A stretch of 64,000 bases of DNA from Polytrichum commune (lineage: Eukaryota > Streptophyta > Polytrichopsida > Polytrichales > Polytrichaceae), in NCBI GenBank assembly GCA_950295325.1, contig OX485809.1, positions 28,148,001-28,212,000 of the forward strand, written 5' to 3'. Every line of letters begins with the position of its first letter. The first letter of the stretch is position 1. The translations under genes and the position numbers were made by a program. This document shows, one piece after another, positions 3,338 to 42,664 of the stretch. The notes under the pieces are model-generated. The model made no database searches. It was not told the DNA's origin and worked only from the letters and a program-made list of their open reading frames with translations.

Positions 3338-3747
3338 CACGGGGGGGTCACTCCATTGTCAAGTTGAACACCACGTGCGACCAAAAAAAATCTTCTTTTG
3401 GTAAGTTGCACCACCAAAATGGATCAATTTTTTATCAATTTTTTTTCATGAGTAGATATACACAGTACCTATGACATAATTAGAAGTGGTAACTAAATTT
3501 GATGATTTGTTTTTTTCATAAAACATACCGTTTCTAACTAGAATGACACAGAATTGAACTAAAAAATTTACTAAAAAAATTAAAAATGACTAAAAATTTC
3601 ATAAAAATATACAAAAGATACTATCAATGGTTATGTATATGTAGAAAAATTATCATAAATTTTAAAATTATATATGGCATGTAATATAGGGGTAGCAAAC
3701 TTTGTCCGCATGTGGTGTCAACTTGACAATGAAGTGACCTCCCCGTG
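3338..3747 (+). mobile_element. MITE, 410 bp, 8-bp target duplication (copy A)
   Basis: The ends are inverted repeats beginning CACGGGGGGGTCACTCCATT on the left and, in reverse complement, CACGGGGAGGTCACTTCATT on the right, continuing through TGTCAAGTTGA. It is flanked by a perfect 8-bp duplication TGGTATAC at 3330-3337 and 3748-3755. There is no coding potential. A second copy lies at 41692-42100 with its own, different duplication. The 8-bp duplication suggests hAT-type or possibly Mutator-type mobilisation; TIR length and sequence do not settle which. Confidence 0.93.
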
Positions 3748-3755
3748 TGGTATAC

Positions 3756-7677: not shown

Positions 7678-8630
7678 CTAGTCAGTAAATTGTTGGTGGT
7701 GAGAACAGAGAAAGGGTTTTAGACATCGATTTGACATCTTTGCTCAAAACCAAGATAGGGAGACCTTTTGACATCTTTTTATTTTTATTTTTTATTAATC
7801 AAAGATCGCAATGGTAAACACGATCCACGCCCTCCATGCATGCAGCCCTCAAGTGAAAGAACGTTTAACCATAAGACCTTCGTTTCAAATTGTCTGCAAT
7901 CTGCAGGTTCAATTGAAGGGCCTCACGTACAGAATTTCTAGCCACATCCTCATGTGAAAACTCCTGAACAAAGCAGAGCCCTGCAACCCAGTACGCTTTT
8001 CTTGGCGTTCTCAAGCTATAAACCTTGGGTCGTTTTGATGCTCAATGTAACTCCCACATTTGGGGCCAGGATAACAAACCAACAAAAACAACGCCCGCGA
8101 TCAATCAAATGCCCCCAATTTTGTATTCTTTAGCCACCCTAACACCATTGCAGATCCTTAGGGAGTTGGGGGTTGGCTTGGTGGCACTGCACTAGAAACT
8201 GTTGCGTTAAGCACCACCTTGCATTGCCACCTCGGCTCAGCTCGGCGCAAAGGAACAGACATGGGTATGGAACGCAGAGAGGTAAGTCCAGTTGTTACCC
8301 TAAAACCGATGAAGATAGAGTCATGTGAGGAGGGATATATAAGTTATGTGGGATACTAGTGGGGAGTACATAACACTAGCTAGCCTCCCTCTCTCCCCAC
8401 CCTTGCACAAGTGACTCCAATATGGTAACTCTGAGGTAGAGGCACCGATTCCTATCTAAATCCGTCCCCTACGTCTCTCCCATTCGAATATCTTCATGCA
8501 GTCTAAATCCGTTCTCACTATAAGTACATACATTAACTTTCAAAACCGAGTCAATCAACCAAAGATCAAATTTCGGGAAGCCATATTTGGTGGTATTGAT
8601 CTTTTTGCCAAACCATACATCGGGTCATAT
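7678..8630. other. Intergenic stretch
   Basis: No gene or repeat is recognised. Base composition is more balanced between 7800 and 8500 than in the neighbouring AT-rich DNA. Confidence 0.4.
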
Positions 8631-8860
8631 CAGGGCCACACCGGGCGCTCCAGTCACCAAAAACATCAGCCCTACGTATTCTCCGGAAATACAGGGCTGA
8701 GATTTCAATTGGCTGGAGCTGATGGTTGCAGGCTACCCCCCTTCTTCCAGCCACTCCAGTAGCTCCAGCCAACCGAAATCCCAACCCTGTATTTCCGGAG
8801 AATACGTAGGGTTGATGTTTTTGGTGACTAGAGCTGCTGGGGTTTTTGGTGTGGCCCCTG
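8631..8860. mobile_element. Foldback MITE (palindromic, about 230 bp)
   Basis: The two halves are reverse complements over roughly 100 bp each. Outer ends are CAGGGCCACACC and GGTGTGGCCCCTG. Inner arms share CACCAAAAACATCA, CCCTACGTATTCTCCGG, AAATACAGGG and GGCTGGAGCT. The CAGGG start is common among hAT-type elements, but I find no clear 8-bp duplication. Transcribed, it would form a long, slightly mismatched hairpin. Confidence 0.85.
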
Positions 8861-8960
8861 TATCAAAGGCGCAACCAAGCTAGCTATAGTAGTCCTTTCA
8901 AATTTCAACTCGAAAGTTGTAGCCGAAAAAAAGAGATTACATTTTGAATGAACTTAGGTC

Positions 8961-10160
8961 TATTGACTCAATTTTGGAACTACTTTCATTACTCACCTTC
9001 AATTGCAAGAATAGTTCACAGTGTCGCATGCGGTTCTTCTTCTCACTTCTAGTTAATAGTGTGACCTCTTAGGGTATTTTTCTCTTACAATTATGAAGGT
9101 TTTCTTTGTGCATGAGAGCATTACCAGAGGTTGAATGCTATAGTCATGTTGCAACATGGGTGTAGCACACGGGAAGTGTCAAAATTGTTGGGTATCTCTC
9201 AATCTACATGCTCTAGAATTTGTAGAGAGTGTGTTCCTCATGTGGAGCCTTCAAAAGGAGGGCATCCAAGAAGCATCACCCCTGCTCAACAAAGAGCGTG
9301 TGTAGGAGCCACCACATGTGGTGGACTAGATAATGATGTAGACATGAGGGATGCTTTGAGTGACCGATTGAAGGTGGTAATGAGCACCAACACAATGTGG
9401 CGTGCACTTCACGAAGTAGGTATTGGGTCATTAGAGAAGCGGAAGAAGTTGTTGCTCGCGGCCAAGAATGTGCGTTGCGGGTCGGAATTTGCTCAACGTC
9501 ATCAAGATTGGACTATCCATGATTGGTATAGGGTGATTTTTAGTGATGCGCCTAAGATCAGTGGATTCTAGTCTGATGGTCGCGTTTGGTGTTGGGTGAA
9601 GGATGGAGAATCTCAATTACAAGCTCATCATGTGAGTCATGCAGTTAACATGGAGGCGGTGTAATCTTTATGTGGGGTTGTATGACTTCATGTGGCATGG
9701 CTTACATGTTCAAGATAGAGGGGAAGATGACACAAGGTCCGTATCTTAGCATTCTTCAAGATGGGGTCATGAAGACAATTGAATGGTATTGTTTCAATCC
9801 TCCTCATGTCATACTCCAGCATGATCATGATCCTAAACATATTGCAAAATTGGTCAAGCAACGGTTGTCAATGCAAAGTTTTGATGTACTTACTTGGCCT
9901 CCTCGATCACCTGACCTAAATCCGATGGTGCATGTGTGGGCACTTTGTGAAACGGAAATGAAATGAGCATCCAACACTACCCAAAGGAATGTCAATTGTG
10001 GGAGTGTGTGCAAGCTTCTTTCCATTCCACCACTGTTGGGCAGTGTCCAAAGTTCTATCATAGCCTGCCCAATCGTATCCAAGTTGTTTTGACTTCTAAA
10101 GGAGGGTGGACAAATTATTGATGTACAGGTAGATGTATGTTACAAAAGTGAGTCAATGTA
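8961..10160 (+). mobile_element. Tc1-like (IS630/Tc1/mariner) DNA transposon with both inverted repeats
   Basis: Terminal repeats of about 24 bp lie at the edges: TATTGACTCAATTTTGGAAC on the left and, in reverse complement, CATTGACTCACTTTTGTAAC on the right, with 17 of the 20 quoted bases matching. TA sits at the left edge. On the right TG then TA follow the repeat, so one TA may have decayed or the ends are offset by two. The 1.2-kb length fits Tc1 elements. The interior is almost entirely the transposase pseudogene at 9131-10121. Confidence 0.85.
9131..10121 (+). pseudogene. Tc1-like transposase, DD34E type, inactivated
   Basis: It would cut and paste the surrounding element by binding the inverted repeats. 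The N-terminus shows a helix-turn-helix (STREVSKLLGISQSTCSRI). The catalytic core shows VIFSDA (first Asp), LQHDHDPKHIAKLVKQ (second Asp) and SPDLNPMVHVW. In the last motif the third acidic residue, usually Glu in NPIEHLW, is Val; the spacing of 34 residues marks the DD34E class. The C-terminus (LPNRIQVVLTSKGGWTNY) is the standard Tc1 tail and ends at a TGA at 10119. Total length is near the usual 340 residues. Disabling changes are a TAG at 9569, a frame change near 9655, another near 9955, and the Glu-to-Val change. Confidence 0.9.
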
Positions 10161-12353
10161 TGTAGTACTCTTCAAATTATTGTTTCTCCATGTCTAGTTT
10201 TGCAATAGACATGAGACTTTGGAAATGATGTACTAGACTGTGACTATTAACTTACATAAATGAAAGTTTGTAAGTTCTTGTTTTTATTGCCTGGCATTAT
10301 GTGTAAAAATTGATGTAGGGAGTCATTGACTCGGTTTTAAGTGTCAATGTAGCTCAAGGGTTGGTATTGAGTGAGTTGACTACGACAGTGAGGTTGGGCG
10401 TTGATTGGACATGTCATTGATTGCTTGGGGTCAACAAAGGCTAATTAGAGAATGTGGTTAGCTAACTTGAATGACGCATGATGCATGAGATGGCATATAG
10501 TGCCGAAGTTATTAAGTAGCGTGTTGGCTTATGGATGGATTAAGCCATATGGGCCCTAGGGCCCGGTTCAAGTGTTAATGGGAACGGGTTTGGGTCCACA
10601 TGCTAGACATGGGAACGGACAAATTAAGGTTGTGGCAAACTGACTCAAGGGTAGGATGGCCATGAAAAAGCTATGTGTGAACAAATTAAGGCTATAAGGA
10701 ACTTGTTTTGTGATTAGGTAGTGGTGTAGTCAAGGCCCCTTATATGACGACATTGAGAAGATGTTGCATGTGGTGAAAATGATTGCCTGTTATATTCAGG
10801 TTGTAGTGAAAATATTTTAATATTATTTTAATGAAAATTGGGTTGTCTTTGCTAAGGCGTACATGCCATTTCTTATGTAGTTTGGATGCTATATGTAGGC
10901 TGAATCGACCAACGATTTGATTGAGGCACCCTCTACCTTGCCTATAATTGTATTCAAGCATCTTGAAATATTTATTTGTTACTAGATTACATTCATTGTT
11001 GTTGGATCTTGTTGGTAATTGGAAGTAGACTTCAACACATCATAGTATAGAGTACTCGGACATCATATCACATCACATCCATTGATTGTTGTGAACATGT
11101 TCTACAAATTGTTAACTTAAGCGAGTTTTTGTTAAGTTATAACATTTTCTTAAATTTTTGATGTTTGACCTTTAAAGACGTATGAGGGTAAAGCATCTTC
11201 TAGAATGTCTTATAAAGTTAAACTTGTCGGGATCTATCATAGAAGAGGAGTTGTGAGGAATCATCAAAGGATCATATCCATAAGTTTGTTAAAAGTACAT
11301 ATATGCAAATAAAAAAGCATGGACCTCCCATATTACTAATTAATCATCATGATGAAACTCCTCATTCTGTTGATGAGAAACCTAATGAGGTTGGTTGAAA
11401 TTGCAAAACATACTATAGATGGGTGGAAAGTTGTGTGCTTGATGTGATTTTGAAATGATCAAATTGTCAATGTGTGACTTGAGATGATGCAAGCACTTCA
11501 TGGGAATAGAGAATAACCAATTATGAAGTTTTACAAATAGACATTTGGATGTGACAGGTAATTTTAAGCAATGTGTATGTCCAAACAATGTGAAAAAAAT
11601 AATTTAGTTCTTAGAAAGATCCAATACACTTTCAAATTGCATTTTTAGTAGTCCAATGTTACTTAACCATGTTGTGACACTACTTGAATCCATATGGCAA
11701 TTAGTGTAACTTATACTTAAGCTTCGATACATGGTTAGTGACATTGTTGCATGACACTTGATATCATGAACACAACAATAGAAGTGAAATTACAAATTAA
11801 CCCTTGTCTAGTGTGTGTAGAGCACCACTTTATAAATAGAGATAGTCATATTGACAGGTTCTAGCATCATAAATTCCCATAAAGCACTCCACGTAATAGC
11901 AAAATAACCAATGTTGGCACATATTGAACAATTATATTGCTCTAAGGACTAAAAACACATATCATCGTTTGAACAAGACGTGAACAAGATAAAATGTCAA
12001 TAATTAACATTGTCCACTTTGGAGGGTCCTCTGTCATTAGGAATGGTCAACGAGGTTTGTGACTTTGAACATCTATACATAACTTATAAATTCTACAATT
12101 CATGTGATCTCAATGTTGTTATGCTCAAGGTGTAATTGCTAATCCAAAAAACAATATTGGGTAATTTGCTAGGGTTAGATAAGGGACAATATTGCTCAAA
12201 GTTTCCATAATAGGTGCTTCTACCTTAAGGGCAATGAATGTGAAAGGAGGGCATGGTTATAAGTATGGCCATTCAATTACATTATTGTAGGTAGGGCATG
12301 CATGGCTTGAGCTTTGTGGCATCTAGGTAAAAACACAAACCCCTTGTAAGTTG
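10161..12353. other. AT-rich intergenic stretch
   Basis: No gene is recognised. Short open frames here have no domain or repeated homology. A GAGTCATTGACTCGG palindrome at 10319-10333 resembles the Tc1 terminal repeat but lacks a partner. Confidence 0.4.
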
Positions 12354-19799: not shown

Positions 19800-20237
19800 A
19801 AATTTTGGCCAATTCTCAGACTGTAGTTGGGGTTTGTGTAAATTTGGGGCCATAGCAGATTTTTGTGGCGGTTTCCCATGTATTCAGCATACCTAATTTT
19901 TTGAATTTGTATTATTTGGGCGGTGGTGATGTGTATTAGATTTTTCAAAAGTAGTTTGATAGTTTTCAGTCAATTTGGTCATTGTTTTGCCATTTCTTTG
20001 CGTATTGGAATTTCTGGGTGGCTACTACGAAGTGTCTTGTGTGTTCTTTTTGGATGAATGATTGTAGGTTTTTTATTATCCTGGTGAGGTTTGTTGATGA
20101 TGGTGGTTTGGCTAGTTAGTATGGGATTGTGTGGGCAATGAATGCGTGATACTGGAAAAAATAGGGCTTTTGAGGGCACCGGTATCTGCTAGTGCATCGA
20201 CTTGGTCGTTACCCTAGATTCATGTATGGGCATGTAC

Positions 20238-20597
20238 AACACAATATAGTGCTTGTACAATGCCATCAAGAAACGAAACCCGGACCACTAAACATGTGAT
20301 ACTAACCCTCGCATATATTGAACCACTTAGAAGTCCTATGACTCGGCGGCTACCTCATGCAGATAAATGATCATGTACCCCTACGACACCACAACCACAC
20401 TAACCCTACCAGTACACATAACACCCATACACTAAGTTCCCATGGTCATTTTGGTTACCTTGGTTACTATAGTGCTCACCCCGAGAGGGGTTAGTAATCC
20501 TGCACCACTGATATTATGTCAAGTGGACATAATACCAAGGGTGGGTCGAACATGCATTTTAATCACGTTGATCCCACTAAGGTCAACGTTTCATCTC
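20238..20597 (-). mobile_element. Probable tRNA-derived SINE nested in LINE copy A
   Basis: A 360-bp insert is flanked by a perfect 13-bp duplication TATGGGCATGTAC (20225-20237 and 20598-20610). On the minus strand its 5' end carries an A-box-like GACCTTAGTGGG (20584-20573) and a B-box GTTCGACCC (20551-20543), with the spacing expected of an internal RNA polymerase III promoter. It interrupts the LINE frame exactly between KVHAH and GNDQVDALAD-type sequence. No long A tail is present; the 3' end is TTGTGTTG. It depends on LINE enzymes for movement if the call is right. Confidence 0.65.
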
Positions 20598-21925
20598 TAT
20601 GGGCATGTACTTTTTGTATGGTGGTTTTGTGTTGCAACCAAGTAATGTAGTTTACTATGGATGTGTTGAGGAGTTGCCTAGGTGGTTGTATTGGATGCTT
20701 GGGCGTCGGATGTGATTGTTTACAAGGTTTATTTTGTTGAGGTTATTATTGAAGCACAATAAAACTAGAGATCAGATTGCATAAGCAAATACACATACAC
20801 AAAGGCATATGAACAATGCTTGGAGTGAGATGGTCACCTCCACTCTTTGCGTTGCTCTTTATTGCATTTTTTCCTCTTTGGTTCATACAATCCATATGGG
20901 ATATCTCAACTCCCACTTCCCCCAATTCATACCTTATTCATTCTTATACCTCTAACATTCACTATCTTATGACTACAAGCAACTTAATGCTCTACCTTCA
21001 ATAATTGTCTGTAAAGATGTGTATGTCATTGGGGGGGGGGTGTCTTGGCTTGGGTGTTGGCCAAGGCTAGCCGAATGGCATATAGTTATGCTCATAATAT
21101 GTTTTGGAAACTTGGGAGTCTTTATGTTATTTGGAGGTTTTTTATTAGGTTGTGTGCCCCTCGAGCCTGCTAGGTTACCATTTATCTTTCCGTTCGGTGG
21201 TATGAAGGATCCATATGTGTAGATGCTTTGTAGGGGGTTATATTTAAGGGGGTGTTGTGTGTGGACTTGTGTGGGATGGGGGGGGGGGGGTTGTTGCTTG
21301 AGGTGGTGTGTCCAATGAGAATTTGGCAACTGGGGAGTTTTCAAATTCAACATATTAACTTTGTATGGTTTGATGGTGGTAGATGGGTTATGGGTATGTA
21401 AGTTTATGTTATAAGTTTCATGGAGAATGAGTTTCCATTGGGGACAAATGTGTGGCATGTGGGTGGAGTATCTAGGTTGTGTATGCATACGATTGTGGTG
21501 AGGACAATTTCGAATTGGTTGTAATATGCTGGCCATTGTTGGGCAGGTGGGTATACTTGAGTGTTTGGAGGGGATGTAACAATGATGTGGATATCTTGGT
21601 GTTTGTCGATTGACAATTGTTGGGGCATCCAACCATTATGGTCTAGGGTCATGATTATGATGTTATGCAGGTTTTCTTTGGTTGTCATCCTAGCCCAATG
21701 TATGGACTCTAGTGTGGTTTGGTACCCTGCGGGGTGGACGTATCCCACTCCATTCCATTGGGACGACAATGCTAGTCTTTGTGAGCCGAATATGATGTCT
21801 CTTTGGTGAGGTGAGTTGTATCTCTTGAGGGTAAGTGGGGATGAGAAGTAAGGGTGTGTCATGTCAAAGGATTCTAGAAAGCGGTTACTAGTTATTTTGG
21901 GGTGTATACAATGGTCTTGATATGG

Positions 21926-21939
21926 GGGGGGGGGGGGAT
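21926..21939. repeat. Poly-G tract
   Basis: A run of about 13 G. Similar runs lie at 21031-21040 and 21279-21290, all inside LINE copy A, where they break the reading frame on the minus strand. Confidence 0.8.
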
Positions 21940-22909
21940 TTGTTTAGGATTTTTCACTGGTAAAATAGTGGTATATCTATATAAGAGTAGAAATATTATG
22001 GTTGCGGAGTTTTGTGGTAATGGGTGGAGAGTGGTGAGAAGTAGATTGTGTGCGTTTTCTAAGTGTCGTTTCCAAAGCTATTGGAATCATTATGTGGTGA
22101 TGGATGTGATGTAAGAGCATGTGTGGTCAAAGTTTAGGATGTGTTGGAGTTGGATTCGTATGGTTGGTTGTGTGGCAGTAAAATCTTTGTCAAGGCTGCA
22201 CAATTGGGTAACAAGGGTGAGTTGGGGAGCTTTAATGGGTGGGCGCTACGAATCTTATGGAATGTTAAAGTTGTTTGGGTATTCTTTCATTTTAGTATTA
22301 TCATACTTGTTACGACTAAATTGTTTACTATTGTGAGAATGTGGTCATAGGTTAGGTTGTTGGTGTTAAGGAGGTGTTGTTTGTCAACCTATTTGACAGT
22401 ATTTCGGGCTTAGGCATCCCACATGCATGAGAATTGTTAGTTTGTAGTTGTTGCACCTCATTTATCTTTTACGTTTTTGGTTCTTGTATGTGCCTGTAAT
22501 TCCTTGTATCAATGTTTTGTTCTTGAAAGGTGGTTGGTTGTGTTGGGGGTTGTGGTTCTTTGGGTTTGTTTGTATGGGGGTTTCTGTGGAGCGGTGTGAA
22601 GTTAATGTAAGGAGGCGGGGGATATATTGTTGGCTTTCTTTAAGGCTTACTCTATCATTTTGGGGAGGTTTATATATTTGTTTTTGAACTCTATGTGAGA
22701 GACGATGGCAGTGCGGTCTTGGTTTTGGAGTTGTCTGAGGGTGGATTTATTGTATTGGTATAATTTGTTGAGGCATTTTCTTGTGTGGGTTTTTCCTTCA
22801 AGGGGTAATTGTACGTATCATGGGTTGGTGAGCCATTGAATTTATAGGGAGGTTTGATGTATGGGGAAGGAGGTCTTTGTTGTGTCTATATATCTATGTG
22901 TATGTGTAT

Positions 22910-22933
22910 GTGTACACACACACACACACACAC
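22910..22933. repeat. (CA)n microsatellite
   Basis: A short CA run inside LINE copy A, preceded by TGTATGTGTA-type sequence. Confidence 0.8.
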
Positions 22934-23775
22934 TTACTTTCTAGTAGGACAAAGGATCCTAGTAGTTGGGGACCTGATGCAAGCTTGGTGAGTGAGTTTT
23001 GGGAGATCGAAAGATCCCCATACTTGGTGAGGATATATTTGATTAATCCTTGATATATTTTGCCAAGTTGGCTTTAATTGTTGAGGGCTTGGATAAGTTG
23101 TTTGCCCATACATGTGATGCACTCTAGTATGATGGATGTCATGTTGATGCCATAGTTGTCATTATTGAGATGTGCCATTTGGGATTTAAAAGATGGCTTT
23201 GGTTACTTTGTTGAGGATTTTGTTGATTTTGCATGTGTATGGTTTGGAGAACAATACTGCAGAGTAGGAGTGTGCTATCCCCTGGCTTGATGATAGTGTT
23301 GAGGATTTTGATTATTTGTCTAATGGTGGCAGATGAAGCTATGAGGAGTTTGCTCTATTCTTTGGCTTTGTTCATTGTGATGTCTTTCCAATTTTTCCAT
23401 TTGAGTGATAAGACTAAATGGATTCCCAAATAGGTATAAGGTTCATTTTATGTGAGAATGAGGAATTGCATGCCTTTATATAAGATTCTTTGTGCTTAGA
23501 AAATACTTTGAATATAGTGGGTTGGAGTATAGCTTTGTTGGGGCTTCCTACAATGTTGCATTTGGCAAGATTGAGGCCCATATGTGCCCATTTGGTGAAT
23601 TTATGGAGTTTTTCTATATGTGCATGTAGGTGCTAGATTTTGTTAGTGAGCAATGGTAGGTCGTTAGCGTGTGTAAACGCTTTAGGAGGTGTTGAAGTGG
23701 TAACCAAGTGATCTTATTTTCATCCATCTCAAGAGTGGTTCTAGGAAGATGATGTAGAGGTAGGGGCTCAGGGTT

Positions 23776-24414
23776 TAGGACATATCATAGACCATGAGAC
23801 ATATCATTTCTTTCTTGCAATACCCCTTAAACCGCTCTCACATGTTTCACCAAATGTGGGACATCTAGAACTCAAGGATTTGAGTACATATGGTGAAGTG
23901 GGTTGCAAATAATGCTCAATGTACAACACAAGGTACATATCACAAGTAAATTACATTGAACATGTACAAATTAAATCGCTCATTTTTTTTTTGTAAAATT
24001 TGTTGTGAGAAGATTTACAAGCCACATCTTCCACACATTTAACAAGAAGTGAAGATAGGTGAAGCCCAAGAGAAGACAAGAGAATGGTCAAACTTAAATT
24101 CTTTTCAAAACTGCCCTTCTTGGGCATCTTTTTTTTTTAAATAAAAAAATCAACACATTCACTTTTTGGTGCATGGTCATTCTTCTTGGTCTACATTTGG
24201 TTTACACCTAGTGAGGGGCCCAAAGGCTTTGTAAATTGATTTTTTAAAGAAATCATACCATAGAAGTTGGACCATCAAGTCGGATCATGGAAAAAACCCA
24301 TCTTTCATGGTCCAACTTCATGGTCCATGGTGTAAACTGGCCCTAAACTTGTCAAGCCAAACACCCGGCTACTAGGGCATGTTGTTGTGGGGTAAGTTAT
24401 GCCCTACCCACCCT
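23776..24414. other. AT-rich intergenic stretch
   Basis: No gene is recognised. Around 24250-24335 two imperfect inverted copies of ATGGTCCAACTTCATGGTCC-like sequence occur, suggesting another small decayed foldback element. Confidence 0.4.
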
Positions 24415-25812: not shown

Positions 25813-28369
25813 TCTACCTATCTAAAGAGGTTGTTATGAACACTTAATAACACTAGATCTTCAAATTTAAGGAGACACAAAATTGTGCACATGGAGGATA
25901 ATTGTGTGAAAGACAACTTTAATTGTAGACATGAGGTATGTGGACCGTTTGTGGTCACTTTTCTTTATCAAATTATAAAGACCTCTAGTTAAATGATATA
26001 TGACAAGACTTGTAGCTAAGAAAGGACACCACAAAGATGTGTCTTACATTGAGATCTATCTATCTATCTATCTACCTACCTACCTACATAAGTTCTAGAT
26101 TTAATTGTGAGAGCAATTTGGGAGAGAGGGGGGCATGTATGCTTGTTTAAAGAGGAGGATAGTCTTCACTTGGATTCTTACAACTTTAGCATCTTCATTT
26201 CTAAACCAAAAACTTGAAATGACAATCTTCATGATTCGCACCAGATGACCCAATTCCTAATCTGATCCGATCCAATTCAATCCAACGGCCAGTAGTTTAG
26301 CATTAGGATTGGCCACATATACCTGATATGTGTGGATTATTTGCATCTTCAACTCTTGCAGAGAAGAAAAAAATAAAAAAATAAAAAGAATCGATCAGAT
26401 GTCATGAAAAAGAGCTAATTCTGTTCAAGTTCGTTCAACATGGCAATCACGCCTACCTGCCTGTAAGCACCACTGCAGTCGAATATTTGTCCCTCATGAT
26501 GCACAAAATCTTTAGCAGTTGGTGGTCGTGTCGCTACTTAACTTATTACAAACAAGCCCACTGCCACTCTGAGGCTTATCTATCTATATCTATATATATA
26601 TATAAAACAAGGTTTGACAAAACTTGATTGATTCTTGAACTTAGGGCCAGTTTAGACTTCATTGATAAAGTGCATCGGTCGAAAATTTTAGGTGAATGGA
26701 GCAATATGATTGGTTACAAAATGGGTTCTTCATTGGTTATGGTTTATACTACTTTCAAAGACTTCTCTAGTCGAGAACTTCAAGCTGGATGAAAAAATGA
26801 CATGGTTGTTAACATGGCAATACTTTTTGCTAGGGGAGTTTTTTAGAGGTCAAGTTTCTTGGGCAACTTCAAACTCTTTGACAAGAAACCTCGCCTCCGG
26901 AGAACTCCAACTTGAGGCATTTTTTTTGTTTTTAAAGTAATTTGTTTTCCTGTCTTTTCCACCATACTCTAGTAGAAAATGGGTCTCAATATGATTGCAA
27001 AATCAATGTGTTGTGACTATGTTTGGGCCACTTTGAGCTATGTCGAAGGGAATTCAAGTTTTCAAATTTGATGTCGATGTGTCGTCATGTTGGTCACTTC
27101 ACAAGTAGAAACAACGCATGGAAACGACACAAAATGGCATATATTTGGCCCTTTCGACTCATGTTGCAATTCCCCTCCCGAACCTATACCAAACTTCCCG
27201 GCCTGCCATTAAATCATGACTAATATAATATGTGTCCCATCATGGGCATGAGAGGAAAATGTCAAGTTCTTGGACTTGACAACTTACCCTAACTAGATGG
27301 TTCTTTCACGCTCACTTATTGGATGATCCTTGCCATCACCTAATCTATGTGGCAATATTGGAGTAGAGAGGAGGAGTTGAACACCCCACATCCTTGTTGT
27401 GGGTGGAATCCCTAGCCAACTCTCCAAACAAGCTTGCATGAAAGTTTTAATGGCTTGCTATTATTTGGCCCATATAATCAATCCACATTATTTGTGTTGA
27501 GGGAGTGCCATCATGTGAGTGGTGAGGGAGGCAATATATTGGAGATACATCCGCTAGTATCTTATAACCGTGGTATTTTGGCATAAATAATAACATTCTT
27601 TCTTATAATATGAGTTGGGAGTTCACACAAAGCGTAATCAACCTAATGAATGCCTTACTTTACTTTTAAAATCAACAACCACAAGCTTGGCATGAGGGTT
27701 TGAAAATGATGACTAATATTGTGGTTTGATTTATCACTATATTCGTTAATTTGGGACTTTTTCGGCATTTTGAGACAGTTACAAATATAAGAACATGGAT
27801 AAATCACACAGATATTGGAGAATGTTGTAAGATGCAAATACTTTGAAGCAAGTGTTCATATCAAGAACCCAATTAAGAACTCATATCAAGATGGTTTGGG
27901 TAGGACGACCCAAACATTAGACCATGTTGTTGTGGTCAATATATTAATTTGAGACAAGAGAAAGTCTCACATTAACAAATATAGTGATATTTAGCATTCA
28001 TTTAAAAATGAATAAAAGCACATTCCAAGTATTGAGCATGCTCTAGACAATAGTTGTACAATTCATGAAGGTTTGAGATATGAAATGATGGAGGCATTGT
28101 GGAAAATATAGAAATTGAAAATTTTGGAAAAAGATGGAAGTATAACAATAGGAAATTGCTCAATAATAATAAAATATAAATAACATTGGTGCTTTCTATT
28201 TGCACCAATGTGAATGGGAGCCCTTCTTCCTTACCCTGATTTTGTTTGACCAAATGACATGGTGGGCAAACTTTCTACCTTCCAAAAGGTGGGCTCCTTT
28301 AAATAATAGTTTCAGTGGGGGCCGGGTGCCATTTATAAGTTTTTGGTGAATTAGGTGTGCATGTTTGGG
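25813..28369. other. Intergenic stretch with microsatellites
   Basis: No gene is recognised. At 26055-26090 a (TCTA)n run passes into (CTAC)n, and at 26577-26604 there is a short (TA)n run. Confidence 0.45.
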
Positions 28370-29640
28370 TTCATGGGGTTAGGTCAACTAGGGCTTGGTT
28401 ATTGTCGAGTTTTTTTAAAACATTTTTGTCAAGATATGTGAGGTATTTTATGCCTATTTGATGTATGTGTTTCTTGAGTTTTATTTTAGTATTTTTAAAA
28501 AAAAATTCTCTCGGGGGTATTTGAGTTTTTCTAGGGCTTTGAGTGATTTTTTGTGCACAACTCCTCATATCCCCATTGTGGCAGTAATAAAGGGGACAAC
28601 ATTGTATCCCACAACTTTTAACGTCTAAATGAGGGAGTCATATTTGTTTGTTTGTTTGTTTTTTCTTTTTTCTTTTTTTCTTTCTCTTATGTTAGTAGTT
28701 GGAAATCTAGCATGGTAGTAGGTGAATTCTATGTATTGTAAGGTGTTTGATGGATTTGGGGGGATGGGTGTATGGCTATCTATGGGAACCACTGGTACAC
28801 ATACTATGTCAAATCTTAGTCAGGCCATGCATGTGCATGTGTTAGGGAGACATGTGCATTGTATTAACCGTTCCAGGATTGTGATGTCTTGGGGCCAATT
28901 GTGTTAGTTGCCGGCATTTACTAGGGTATAGCACCCTGTGTGTTTGTTGATTTAAATTTGTGGACTATTTGGTATACTACTTTGTTATGTTGAGCTATGT
29001 GAAGGCCTTTTATGTGTGGGTGGGTGTAGGTGGAGGGTAGGTGTGGCCACGTGCCGATTTTGTGGTTTCGGCAAAATATGCATTTGAGGATGGGATATGT
29101 TAGAGGCCAAAAGATGTTCTATCAATGATTTTCCATGTATTGGGCGTATCGGAATTCGAAGGTATGTGGAATTTGTGCATTAGATATTATGAGGCTTTCC
29201 AAAAATGGTTTGAGAGTTTTTGATCGATTTGTGCGTTGGACACCCATTTGTTGACGTATGCAAATTTGGATTTTGCGTAGTTCTTGTTCGCAGTGGTATT
29301 TGTCTATCTGGAGGTTGCGGTTTTCACCACAATGTTCGCATGTCGGGACTTCGTGGAGCCATTAAGGTATGGTGTATGCGATGTGTATGTGGGAGTGCAG
29401 AGGTTGGTTTGTTGCAGGTGGTTCCCTTGTTTGCTAGTTGGTTTAAGATTTTGTTGCTCGAGATCCCAATGTGTGCTCCAACTTCTTGTAATATTACGTT
29501 ATGTTTGGTCCATATAATTTGATGGATTATGGCTAAGATAAGTAGTTTGTCCGGGTGGTTGTGTTGGGGTGAGGGGTGGCGGATGTGATTGTTAATGAGA
29601 TATATATTGTTGAGGCTATCAATAAATGTAGTGAATGTTT
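28370..29640 (-). pseudogene. LINE retrotransposon, copy B (RNase H half and C-terminal tail)
   Basis: On the minus strand from about 29640 it reads FIDSLNNIYLINNHIRHP, then WTKHNVILQEVGAHIGIS and NKILNQLANKGT, the second half of an RNase H domain. Further down CIFCRNHKIGTWPH is a zinc-knuckle-like motif of the kind seen at the C-terminus of plant LINE proteins. The end is IKYLTYLDKNVLKKLDNNQ followed by a stop. It overlaps in content with copy A (both have NNHIR with downstream HNH) and therefore belongs to the same family. The reverse transcriptase part is absent, a strong 5' truncation. Confidence 0.7.
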
Positions 29641-30130
29641 TTCATTACGCTTCAAACCAACCCAAGGAAATAACCCATAGAACTAGATCTCAAGGAAGAC
29701 TGAGCTAGTGTCTATAAGGATAAATGTCACATTGGATTGAAGATTTTAATTAAATCTAGGTCTTTACTCATTCACTTCTTCTTTATTAAGCTTAATCTCC
29801 ACTCTTATGATTCATTGTGCTTTCTCGGTTGTGTGTGATTTAGTTCTATATGTGTGTGGACTTTTATAACTCTAATTACATCCTCTAAATCAATCGTGAA
29901 GCTTAAAAGCTTGGCAAGTAGTCAGTGGCTCATAGTTAGGACAATGTGTGGACTAATGTCTTTTGAGGTATTGCATCGTCTTTAATTACCATAAATTATG
30001 CTTGTGATAATCTCAAATTTAGTCCATTTTAATTAAGTTACAATCACCACCTTCATCTTTGGTGGACCTAGCAACTTATATCAAGATTCAACTACATAGG
30101 TTAGCTAAACATCGAGGGAAGCTATCTTCT
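29641..30130. other. Intergenic stretch
   Basis: Nothing recognised between the LINE piece and the tail of the Mutator-like element. Confidence 0.4.
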
Positions 30131-33799: not shown

Positions 33800-34685
33800 A
33801 AGATCTATCACCCTAAATGAACCAGATCCTAAGATCCACATAAAACCAACATCAATTTAGTTTTTTTGAATCAAAATCGTTTCATATACCTCTCCATCTG
33901 CAGAGTACATCTCCTGCTCTAAATACATGGTTCATATCTAGAGGTTGAATATCAAAGTAAGCAAATCCTCTGAGATATCCACATGACCATCATCTTGAAG
34001 TGTCAAAATGAAAGGAACAAAAGATCCGTGAGCTCTAATGATAGCCATGGAGAACAAAGAATAGATGAACAACACATCACAATAATTTTGGATCAATGTC
34101 GTTTTTGTATTGAATGATGTACAATATAATAATAGATGTAAATGAAAATATGTGATACCATAGCATCTACTAATATAGAAGGAGACAGATCATAATAGTA
34201 GTCAGAGAATATTTGCAAGTAAAGCATAAAATCCTAAACCAGATCCTAAAAAATATCTCCTTTGGAAACTAAGCCATAGGAAATTTCGAACCCACAAAGG
34301 AGTTGTGTAATATAAGATTACCATATGGGAGAAATGCGGGTACGGATATCATAGAGAAAACGGCATCAAATGGTAAACAAGTTGGCAAAGTTTTAAAATG
34401 TGATTGTATAGGCTGGATGTAGATGCAGGAACAATTAAATTTGGCCGGGATAGTAAATAACTGGTCATTATAAATAGAACAAAGTGGATGTGGAAGGTTG
34501 GAATTTTAGAGAAATTTGGCGGATATAATAAAAATAAAAGTAGAATGAAAGACGCGTTGAGATAACTCGGTTATTGAACGCCAATTACAACATGGATTAT
34601 CGTAATATGCGTCAGGTTTATGTGAGATATAAACACTAGAAGAATGTATGAAAGTGGAGTGGTAGAGGACATATCATAGACACCA
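33800..34685. other. Intergenic stretch next to the Mutator-like element
   Basis: No gene is recognised. It probably contains the 5' non-coding end of the transposon, but I could not define its terminal repeat. Confidence 0.35.
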
Positions 34686-35036
34686 ATGATGTTGGAGGAT
34701 ATAGAGAGAACACCAGTGAGGCGGAAGAAAAGGCGTAAGAAAACTTTATATTTTATTTCTGAGAAAAAAAAGTTCAGATTGAATATAGGAAAGAAGAATG
34801 TAAATAGGGAAGGAAAAAATATCATTTTGAGTACAATAGAAGAAACTGTGAAGACACTGGATTTTGATACAATATCGACAATGGCGATGGAAGACGATGA
34901 AGGTGCAAAGAGTGAAGAACATGCAAACGATTGTATATCGGAGTCGGAAATGAAGACGAGTTCAAAAAATAGAACAAACAAACGTAAGTCAAACAAAACA
35001 AACATGGCATGTGGTACCGACTTAGAGAGGTTATAA
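34686..35036 (+). CDS. Hypothetical lysine-rich protein, 116 residues
   Basis: The longest clean plus-strand frame in this part of the window starts MMLEDIERTPVRRKKRRKKT and ends ACGTDLERL. The N-terminus has a basic cluster resembling a nuclear localisation signal; the middle is acidic (EDDEGAKSEE). It is highly charged and probably disordered, with no recognised domain. It lies about 900 bp from the N-terminal end of the Mutator-like element and points away from it. It could be an accessory gene of that element or an accidental frame. Confidence 0.3.
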   Translation: MMLEDIERTPVRRKKRRKKTLYFISEKKKFRLNIGKKNVNREGKNIILSTIEETVKTLDFDTISTMAMEDDEGAKSEEHANDCISESEMKTSSKNRTNKRKSNKTNMACGTDLERL

Positions 35037-35069
35037 GTTAAAATAAAGAACCATGTGCGTTGACGCACA

Positions 35070-36880
35070 ATGTATATGACATATGATGTGTTTTATTATG
35101 TGTGAATCTCTCCCACATCCAGTATAGTCTTGTAAGTGGGATGGAGATAATGTATGTCCATGTGTGGTCAAATATGTGTGCGTTGGTCTTTGGATTTTAA
35201 TAATTGGTTGAGATACGTGGATGTCTTTGTCCGAGTTGCATTCTTTGATGTTCACAATTAAGTGTGAGGCTTCTGATGAAATTGATCTTTGGGTTGGGAG
35301 AAATTGATGCATTAGTCATAGGTGGCTAGTGTGTTTTGATTGTATGTGTCATGTGTAAATTTATGAAATAGGAATAGGTTATGGTTTAAGGCGATGTTGT
35401 ATGTGTGGAGAATTTGGGATTCTCCTACTCATTTTGATGGTGATTGGGGTTGTGTTCTATGGGCATATGTAGGATTTCTTGATGGCTTGGGCTCCACATT
35501 TATCTTTGTAGGAGGTGGTTTTTGTGAAGGTGATGTGATGTATTAGTTTTCCGACATGTTGATTGTTGTTATTGGTGTTTAGAGCATGCGTTTGTTCTTG
35601 TGGCGGGGGTGTGGCTATTGGTTGTGTTGGGGGTGGAATTAGGACTTTAGCTTTTCGTAAGGCTCTATTGATTAGTTTATGGAAATTGCAGAGAGACATA
35701 ACAATGGCAAAATTTTATTTTTGAATTCTTGTGGGGATAATATATGTTGGGTTGTTGGATTTTGGATTTGGGTGATGGTGATGGTGGTGATGCTATACAT
35801 GTGAAATTTGTTGAGATATTTAGTGGCGCGTTTTTTCTCGTCTTGAGAGAGTAAACCGTATTGGGGTGTGTGTTTCCATGCGAGTTCAAGAGGGGTTTAT
35901 TGTATTAGAAAATCTATGTTGGTGATATTTATGAATATTTCATATTTGTTTCTAATAAAAACATGGTGCAAGTAGTGGGTAACCGTGAGCATGCTTGATA
36001 GTGAAGTTTGAGAAGGTATCGCAGTCCTCCATATTTAGCGGTGATGTGTTTGACTAATACATTGTTATGTCCCTTTGCAATTTCCATTTGAGTGAGGGAA
36101 CGAGATGTATGTCCAAGTATGTGTAAGCTTTATTTTGGGTTAGGGTGGGAAAGGGCTTGTTTTTGGTAAGATAGTTTGGGCTTGTCTATAGGCTTTGAAT
36201 ACATATGTTTTGAGTTTAGATTTTTTTTGAGGCTTCTGGTGATGGCATTGGTTAGGTTTAGGTCTAGGTGTGTCCACTTTGAGAATTATTGGTTTGTGGA
36301 TTTGTGGTTGTATGTTTGCTAAATTGTCCGTGATGATGGCTAGATCATTGGGTTAGGTTGTGGTAGTACATGTGGTTGTGAAAGTATTAGAGTGGTATTT
36401 GAGGTTTTTCTAATCACTTTAAAAGTGGGTTTAGGAAGTTGATGAAGAGGTATGGGTTGGAGTGTGTCTTGTATTGTACCTCTGTTGATCTGGATTGGTG
36501 GTGTGGCACTAAAGTGGTTGTGAGGGAAGGATGTGGTGGTGTGGCACCGAAGTGGTTGTGAGGGAAGGATGTGGTGGAGTTTGTGTAGATGTTACTGATT
36601 AGTTCTACTGTGTCTGTGGAGTATCCTAGGTATTCTATTAGGGCAAGCAGTCTCATGTGGTCAATGGAGCCAAGATGTTGTACAAAATGGATATATGCAC
36701 AAAAAAAATCTATGCATGTATGCAAGTAGGCAGTACAAGGATTCAAAATTGGATAACCATTCACCACCCTCAAAGAGCGTAAGCAGGAAACCCTATGAAG
36801 TAGGAAGAAGACCATGTTGGCTCCATTGGTAACATGTCCACAAGATGTGGCTAAGACTGCTAGTGCAACCACCAATCAGA
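35070..36880 (-). pseudogene. LINE retrotransposon, copy C (reverse transcriptase fragment)
   Basis: On the minus strand from 36875 the frame reads GSIDHMRLLALIEYLG, STDTVELISNIYTNSTTSF and SNPYLFINFLNPLLK, which are fingers and palm parts of a non-LTR reverse transcriptase. Near 36340 NDLAIITDNLANIQPQI follows, matching the ADD motif region (first residues lost). A 38-bp tandem duplication at 36497-36572 shifts the frame inside the domain. The sequence down to about 35070 has the same AC-rich composition as copies A and B, but only weak motifs, so the lower boundary is approximate. Confidence 0.7.
36497..36572. repeat. 38-bp tandem duplication
   Basis: Two units containing GTGGTGTGGCACYRAAGTGG and TTGTGAGGGAAGGAT lie back to back, differing at two positions. 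It lies within LINE copy C. Confidence 0.95.
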
Positions 36881-41691: not shown

Positions 41692-42100
41692 CACGGGGGA
41701 TCACTCCATTGTCAAGTTGAACACCACATGCGACCAAAACAAATCTTCTTTTGGTAAGTTGCACCACCAAAATGGGTCAAAATTTTATCAATTTTTTTTC
41801 ATGAGTAGATATACACAGTACCTATGACATAGTTAAAAGTGGTAACTAAATCTGATGATTTGTTTTTTTCATAAAACATACCGTTTCCAACTAGAATGAC
41901 ACATAATTGAACTAAAACAATTACTAAAAAAAATAAAGATGACTAAAAATTTCAAAAAAATATACAAAAGATACTATCAATGGTTATGTATATGTAGAAA
42001 AAATATCATAAATTTTAAAATTATATATGGCATGTAATATAGGGGTAGCAAACTTTGTCCGCACGTGGTGTCAACTTGACAATGAAGTGACCTCCCCGTG
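41692..42100 (+). mobile_element. MITE, 409 bp, 8-bp target duplication (copy B)
   Basis: Same family, orientation and length as 3338-3747, differing at a small number of positions. It is flanked by a perfect 8-bp duplication TCGTTTTG at 41684-41691 and 42101-42108. The ends are CACGGGGGATCACTCCATTG and, in reverse complement, CACGGGGAGGTCACTTCATT. Confidence 0.93.
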
Positions 42101-42664
42101 TCGTTTTGGGAGCCAATGAGAATGCAACATTGGATTGAACATATTTAAAATTAATGTGTTGGTCTATTTGTTAAGTAGTCGACCTTGAGGTGGGTCAGTG
42201 CCGGAAACGAGGATTCTCATATTTTATCAATATTTTAATGAAGTTTTATGGAACTCTAGAAGCTCATAAAGCTTGCTTGCTTAGAAGCTAACATACCCAA
42301 AAACTTCGACATGTATTTGTGCCTTGAATTATTTTTATTTTTTGGGTGATGTTTTGAACTATGCTAGTCTACTTGTAAATGCACTTCTATTTCATTTTTC
42401 TTTGTTGGAGTTGGTTAAGAATTGAGGAAGAAAGAGGGATGAACGATTTCATGTCAAAATTTACACTAGTTTCCGTTTCTTGGGTATTGGTCAAAGCATG
42501 TAGAAATTTTGGTATTGTTGTTCCTCATTCAACAAAATGATTGACTTGAAGGCAAAAATGAACCAAAGATCATATTGTTCCGTTGGAATTTGCACCTGGT
42601 ATTAATTTTCAAAGTTTGGGATATATTTCTAAATTTCTAAATTTAGTATTTATTGTGTAGCATC
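42101..42664. other. Upstream flank of the Myb-like remnant
   Basis: No gene is seen. A splice-acceptor-like TTTATTGTGTAG lies directly before the ATG at 42665, so an intron or upstream exon may once have been here. Confidence 0.35.

Follow-up and report, generated by a model that had tools for sequence, protein, structure and literature searches.

A dead copy of a Tc1-like (DD34E) transposon family that very probably expanded once, long ago, in a plant genome

Described plant Tc1 elements and the window copy

Tc1-like elements of the DD34E type were published in 2014 by Liu and Yang from a moss and nine angiosperms (PMC4054914). The two moss families, PpTc1 and PpTc2, have CAGT ends and intact copies, with transcripts reported for PpTc1, and plant Tc1 elements outside that one moss were reported to be patchy and mostly fragmentary (PMC4054914). 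A fungal origin has been proposed for moss Tc1 elements in a second report (PMC7466625), and PlantMar is defined in a third as a DD39D plant family (PMC7325037). A literature search with subscription papers mostly outside its scope returned no title closer to plant Tc1 elements.

Here we describe an element in the window, i.e. the whole stretch of 64,000 nucleotides that was analysed (C7:28148001-28212000), from a source genome whose 64 contigs, including seven large ones, total 407.8 Mb; within the 42.08-Mb contig C7 the element lies at 28.16 Mb. Plant Tc1 elements had been described before, and the window element adds a member to this known kind. We are highly confident that the Tc1-like (DD34E) family to which window positions 8531-10349 belong went through a single, ancient expansion in this plant genome, and that the copy at these positions is dead. 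Compared by description, PpTc1 and PpTc2 resemble it in their DD34E transposase (about 338 aa), TA duplications and length of 1.58-1.71 kb (1,586 bp for the window element without a nested fold-back insertion), and differ from it in having CAGT ends and 33-bp repeats as against CATT and 25 bp (PMC4054914); the same CAGT ends are also seen in two other families of the source genome, A and B.

Architecture and decay of the window element

The element is 1,819 bp long and is flanked on either side by TA, the target-site duplication (positions 8529-8530 on the left and 10350-10351 on the right, no strand assigned), with 25-bp terminal inverted repeats that match at 21 of 25 positions. The left repeat (CATTAACTTTCAAAACCGAGTCAAT, 8531-8555, plus strand) forms an end shared with sibling copies of the family, and the right repeat (10325-10349) reads CATTGACACTTAAAACCGAGTCAAT on the minus strand; TA duplications and terminal inverted repeats are both as in Tc1-like (DD34E) elements. 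With the TA counted in, the outer pair (8529-8555 and 10325-10351) matches at 23 of 27 positions, which no TA-anchored pair among 300 same-sized flank pairs elsewhere in the window reached (best 21), and which 4 of 200 null flank pairs equalled once the TA condition was dropped. In an end-to-end alignment of the element with eight siblings (L052 and L073-L079, nine copies in all), the outermost 25 bp agreed, ungapped, at 73% on the left and 58% on the right, and the 15 bp beyond the TA at only 26% (left, 15 pairs) and 33% (right, 36 pairs). Agreement among the siblings thus stops outside the outer repeats, and the element borders are therefore 8531 and 10349; the whole-genome DNA search, whose query was trimmed at these two positions, does not by itself allow a border test. 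TA is present on the left of 8/9 aligned copies, on the right of 7/9 and on both sides of 6/9, and the terminal four bases, CATT in the window element, are CACT, CATT, CAAC and others among the siblings. Long inverted repeats of about 210 bp were also considered and rejected: judged by eye, the outer-to-inner stretches of the two ends have no clear match, and the best local match is the outer repeat itself.

These borders replace those of an earlier note on this DNA, which had described an almost complete element within 8961-10160, with TTGACTCA ends; the true ends lie farther out, and CA, not TA, stands outside the right TTGACTCA member. As element ends the two TTGACTCA boxes were rejected: 54 of 200 null flank pairs match as well as they do (20/27), so that the pair alone is unremarkable, and it gains weight only as an inner copy of the outer repeat and from the siblings. 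The left inner box (ATTGACTCAATTTTGGAAC, 8962-8980, plus strand), formerly taken as the left end, is most plausibly the outer repeat in an inverted copy and has a similar box in the sibling rows; the right one, the former right end (10139-10157), reads ATTGACTCACTTTTGTAAC on the minus strand. With the fold-back set aside, the boxes sit 191-198 bp (about 195 bp) inside the outer ends, and their best match to the outer repeat is the inverted one (15/19 left, 12/19 right). A score as good was found for 1 of 4,851 random stretches on the left, which is rare, for 251 of 4,855 on the right, which is not rare alone, and for 2 of 5,000 null pairs when both sides were scored jointly. Against shuffled arms, the inner box of the window element was supported (14/17, equalled by 2/200, and 13/17, equalled by 11/200), the inverted inner box of family B, at 192 bp, stood out clearly at either end (15/17 and 16/17, equalled by 0/200), and that of family A was not above chance (equalled by 174/200 and 68/200). 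Sleeping Beauty has outer and inner boxes at each end, roughly 200 bp apart, as direct repeats, whereas the inner box of the window element fits best inverted; no paper on such inverted boxes in Tc1 elements turned up in a literature search.

The left end is interrupted by a nested fold-back element, a long hairpin of 230 bp (8631-8860, no strand assigned), with inverted arms about 80-86% complementary and TAT at 8628-8630 and 8861-8863, which contributes about 233 bp. The aligned siblings are without it. Left-end pieces were recorded for 27 of the 39 other places recovered in the source genome (the remaining 12 are uninformative on the hairpin); in 27/27 they reach no farther than query position 103, and similarity resumes at query position 333 or later, no more than 80 bp away in the genome, a break-and-resume pattern from which it follows that the hairpin is missing here from all 27. 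A relative of the fold-back (88%) occurs at C5:3558652-3558888, where it abuts the right-end side of another copy of the window family.

Between the inner boxes lies a Tc1-like transposase pseudogene (9112-10121, plus strand) with putative helix-turn-helix regions and a DDE domain. Its frame is damaged by one in-frame stop and three indels, near 9128, 9650 and 9945, of which the N-terminal one near 9128 is deduced from the siblings and from the start codon, itself a predicted one. The earlier count of one stop and two frame changes thus holds for the stop and falls one short for the frame breaks. On the plus strand, the first catalytic Asp codon is at 9545-9547 (Asp in 6/8 siblings), the TAG stop at 9569-9571 (missing at this place in 8/8 siblings) and the second catalytic Asp codon at 9823-9825 (Asp in 8/8 siblings); the third catalytic position, at 9928-9930, is GTG, i.e. 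Val, as had already been noticed, and is Glu in 8/8 siblings. The window copy should be unable to make an active transposase now. The read-through protein also has the SPDLNP motif and ends in KGGWTNY, both in frame, which bears out the motif and the KGGWT-x-Y tail reported before.

The protein falls with Tc1-type transposases. For its read-through, the match to Sleeping Beauty SB100X (5cr4) has an E value of 7.2e-29 and covers residues 110-340 (32% identity over 231 columns), a likeness that extends to the motifs, and the best mariner-type chains are far weaker (SETMAR 0.0011, Mos1 0.038). The second Asp and the third catalytic position are 34 residues apart, so that by spacing the triad is D, D, 34 residues, E, with Val in the window copy and Glu in the siblings. 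PlantMar and the DD39D mariners, compared by description, have the superfamily in common with the window element (PMC7325037), but neither the spacing of 34 nor the third residue of the siblings fits a DD39D triad; the original assignment to Tc1-type DD34E, and not to the plant mariners, was correct. PF13358 (DDE_3) just reached its cut-off of 28.6 bits (28.8 and 28.6), and HTH_23 (6.6e-5) and HTH_Tnp_Tc3_2 (PF01498, 1.4e-6) both remained under their curated cut-offs in the decayed window copy, with PF01498 exceeding its cut-off in two loci of other families, L011 and L018; the NCBIfam IS630 family model (3.3e-17) was likewise under its cut-off.

From homology and from established Tc1/mariner biochemistry, a transposase with two helix-turn-helix regions would have recognised, at each end, both the terminal repeat and the inner box some 195 bp farther in, and its Asp-Asp-Glu site would have excised the element and joined it at TA sites; the TA flanks and the dispersed copies point to such cut-and-paste movement. 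After insertion, the window copy would have gained the stop, the frame breaks and the Glu-to-Val change, and the fold-back element would have landed in its left end.

Elsewhere in the window, strand asymmetry is strong at 20001-24000, 28001-30000 and 34001-36000 (GC skew 0.26-0.41 per 2 kb), and Pfam gave no match for two open frames at 20976-21943 or for a third at 34680-35033. A 410-bp direct repeat (41695-42104 and 3342-3751, 95% identical, 38 kb apart) could represent a pair of long terminal repeats or a single repeat present twice.

Copies of the family and their age

A DNA search of the source genome, proposed earlier as a check for other copies, recovered the family, at 78-84% identity, from no fewer than 39 other places, with copies on each of the seven large contigs, a lower bound given that 40 of 315 candidates were scored. 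One aligned sibling, L073 (79.7% over 1,512 bp), is an extra copy beyond those 39. The 39 include matches on two small contigs that may be duplicate assembly pieces, C32:5011-6410 having the same match length and score as C2:2063696-2065095, and C59:4413-5627 the same as C1:37826954-37828168.

Pairwise identity among the nine aligned copies is 81.3-86.6%, with the element at 81.6-85.0% to its siblings. Their tree is a star, with internal branches totalling 0.017 and terminal branches 1.07, which amounts to about 0.12 changes per site in each copy; mean K2P is 0.196. The CpG ratio in these copies is 0.47 in the element and 0.22-0.56 in the siblings. The copies diverge by 0.163, 0.165 and 0.140 at the first, second and third codon positions (36 pairs), and by 0.189 outside the frame; the three codon positions are similar, and there is therefore no excess of silent change separating the copies. 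All nine carry at least one in-frame stop, 1 in the window element and 3-10 in each of the eight siblings, where the count may be inflated by a codon phase taken from the read-through of the window element itself. Fewer stops in the window copy would fit a somewhat younger copy, and its identity to the siblings is within the range of the others. The family is thus one old burst, dead in every one of the nine copies examined. Liu and Yang applied a rate of 1% per million years to moss elements (PMC4054914), at which about 12% per copy would correspond, very roughly, to an age on the order of 10 million years; the previous description of the element as not ancient does not hold at a mean K2P of 0.196.

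Other Tc1 families, origin and residence

The window family has company in the same genome. A PF13358 profile search gave at least 149 matches (150 scored of 457 candidates), from which 68 loci were taken (67 places, as L012 and L032 overlap) and joined with six more siblings into a set of 74 loci; three of the six extra siblings hold further PF13358 rows, and about 78 of the 149 rows are outside the set. By nearest bait, the 74 loci divide into 22 of L006-type, 18 of family A, 12 of B, 5 of C, 9 of D1-D3 and 8 of the window family, where the A and B counts include distant members at 35-55% identity, and where a single B element is counted under both L012 and L032, with a D element in each left out of the count. 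Families A, B and C (L011, L018 and L029) have 37-40% protein identity to the window transposase, with uninterrupted frames in A and B (L011, L026, L018). They are younger than the window family, with mean pairwise DNA identities in the coding part of 94.7% in A (7 copies), 97.5% in B (6) and 90.2% in C (4); D2 stands at 84.8% (5 copies, 74-93%). Of 14 loci searched, 9 have outer TA-flanked repeats, with spans of 1.59-1.64 kb, and 5 of these 9 (families A and B) have CAGT at both ends; at L014, L026, L029 and L033, among the same 14, no outer TA-anchored pair was found, and at L024 only an inner pair.

In a protein tree of 16 rows, the window family forms one clade (100/100) and family D another (100/100), and Sleeping Beauty, the single outside reference, falls among A, B, C and the window family in no settled order. 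Family D (L013, L023, L027) is a distant Tc1 clade, at 22-24% identity to the window element and with open frames of 273-354 aa, whose motifs, MEDGAPVH and WTDES among them, may be like those of fungal Tc1 elements. The L006-type loci (L006 994-2049 and 21 further loci) are a separate DDE_3 (IS630-type) family; L006 has an open frame of 352 aa and PF13358 as its sole Pfam match at 1e-4, its type matched the Tc1 baits only weakly and in family B alone (24%, E 5.5e-5), and its third acidic residue may, to judge by its motifs, be changed. We tentatively read the Tc1 families together, as close to an even call, as a long-resident radiation, with waves ranging from a dead family (about 83% identity) to a family with near-identical copies and an open frame, and with an inverted rather than direct inner box shared by the window family and family B.

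Contaminant DNA in a plant assembly, which had been named beforehand as what would undo the account, is extremely unlikely because the element sits far inside C7 and its CpG ratio is like that of the window (0.46 against 0.47); family copies on all seven large contigs contradict it further, and nothing was found that speaks for it. TTTAGGG repeats, which fit a land plant or a green alga, occur in 5/6 chromosome-end stretches (the sixth is N), including both ends of C1 and of C7, the element's own chromosome, so that the plant-type context presumed earlier is sound. Domestication, in which the host would have kept the Glu-to-Val form as a DNA-binding protein, has a vanishingly small chance: two Asp residues and much of the sequence can still be read, as such a role would allow, but the change is seen in 0/8 siblings, four breaks interrupt the frame, and codon positions 1 and 2 have diverged no less than position 3.

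The remaining alternatives concern horizontal transfer. A recent arrival of the window copy from a fungus or animal is very improbable; the single in-frame stop and the patchy plant distribution in print (PMC4054914) speak for it, and are outweighed by at least 39 other places with the same family at 78-84% identity, by the star tree, in which each copy has accumulated about 0.12 changes per site, and by a CpG ratio like that of the window (0.46 against 0.47). It had been left between horizontal arrival and a rarely described plant Tc1 lineage; the second fits better, plant DD34E elements being in print, and an isolated arrival is contradicted by at least 40 places and several Tc1 families. 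An older entry is another matter, in which the family would have come into the plant lineage from a fungus or animal before the burst, and the burst alone would be local. This is plausible, though we lean against it. In its favour, two moss Tc1-like elements are described as closest to fungal ones, with horizontal transfer proposed (PMC7466625), and the transposases of A, B, C and the window family group with the animal Sleeping Beauty, apart from family D; on the other side, several Tc1 families of differing age in one genome suggest long residence, and the tree has Sleeping Beauty as its single outside reference, in an unsettled place.

Searches outside the source genome were made with short exact peptide patterns or among prokaryotic and viral records, and say little about eukaryotes. 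Three protein or alignment queries of viral contigs gave no confirmed relative, and one DNA pattern gave 5 matches there, none Tc1-like in translation; a peptide-pattern scan of genome contigs gave 64 matches, none confirmed. Phages held no relative at E 0.01 and PHROGs none, and plasmids gave 2 weak Mesorhizobium matches (22.6% identity, E 2e-3 and 3e-3).

This genome, in which several Tc1 families of graded age coexist, can be used to ask whether plant Tc1 elements are inherited over the long term or reintroduced, and the value of the window fossil lies chiefly in marking the oldest of the waves compared, those of A, B, C and the window family.
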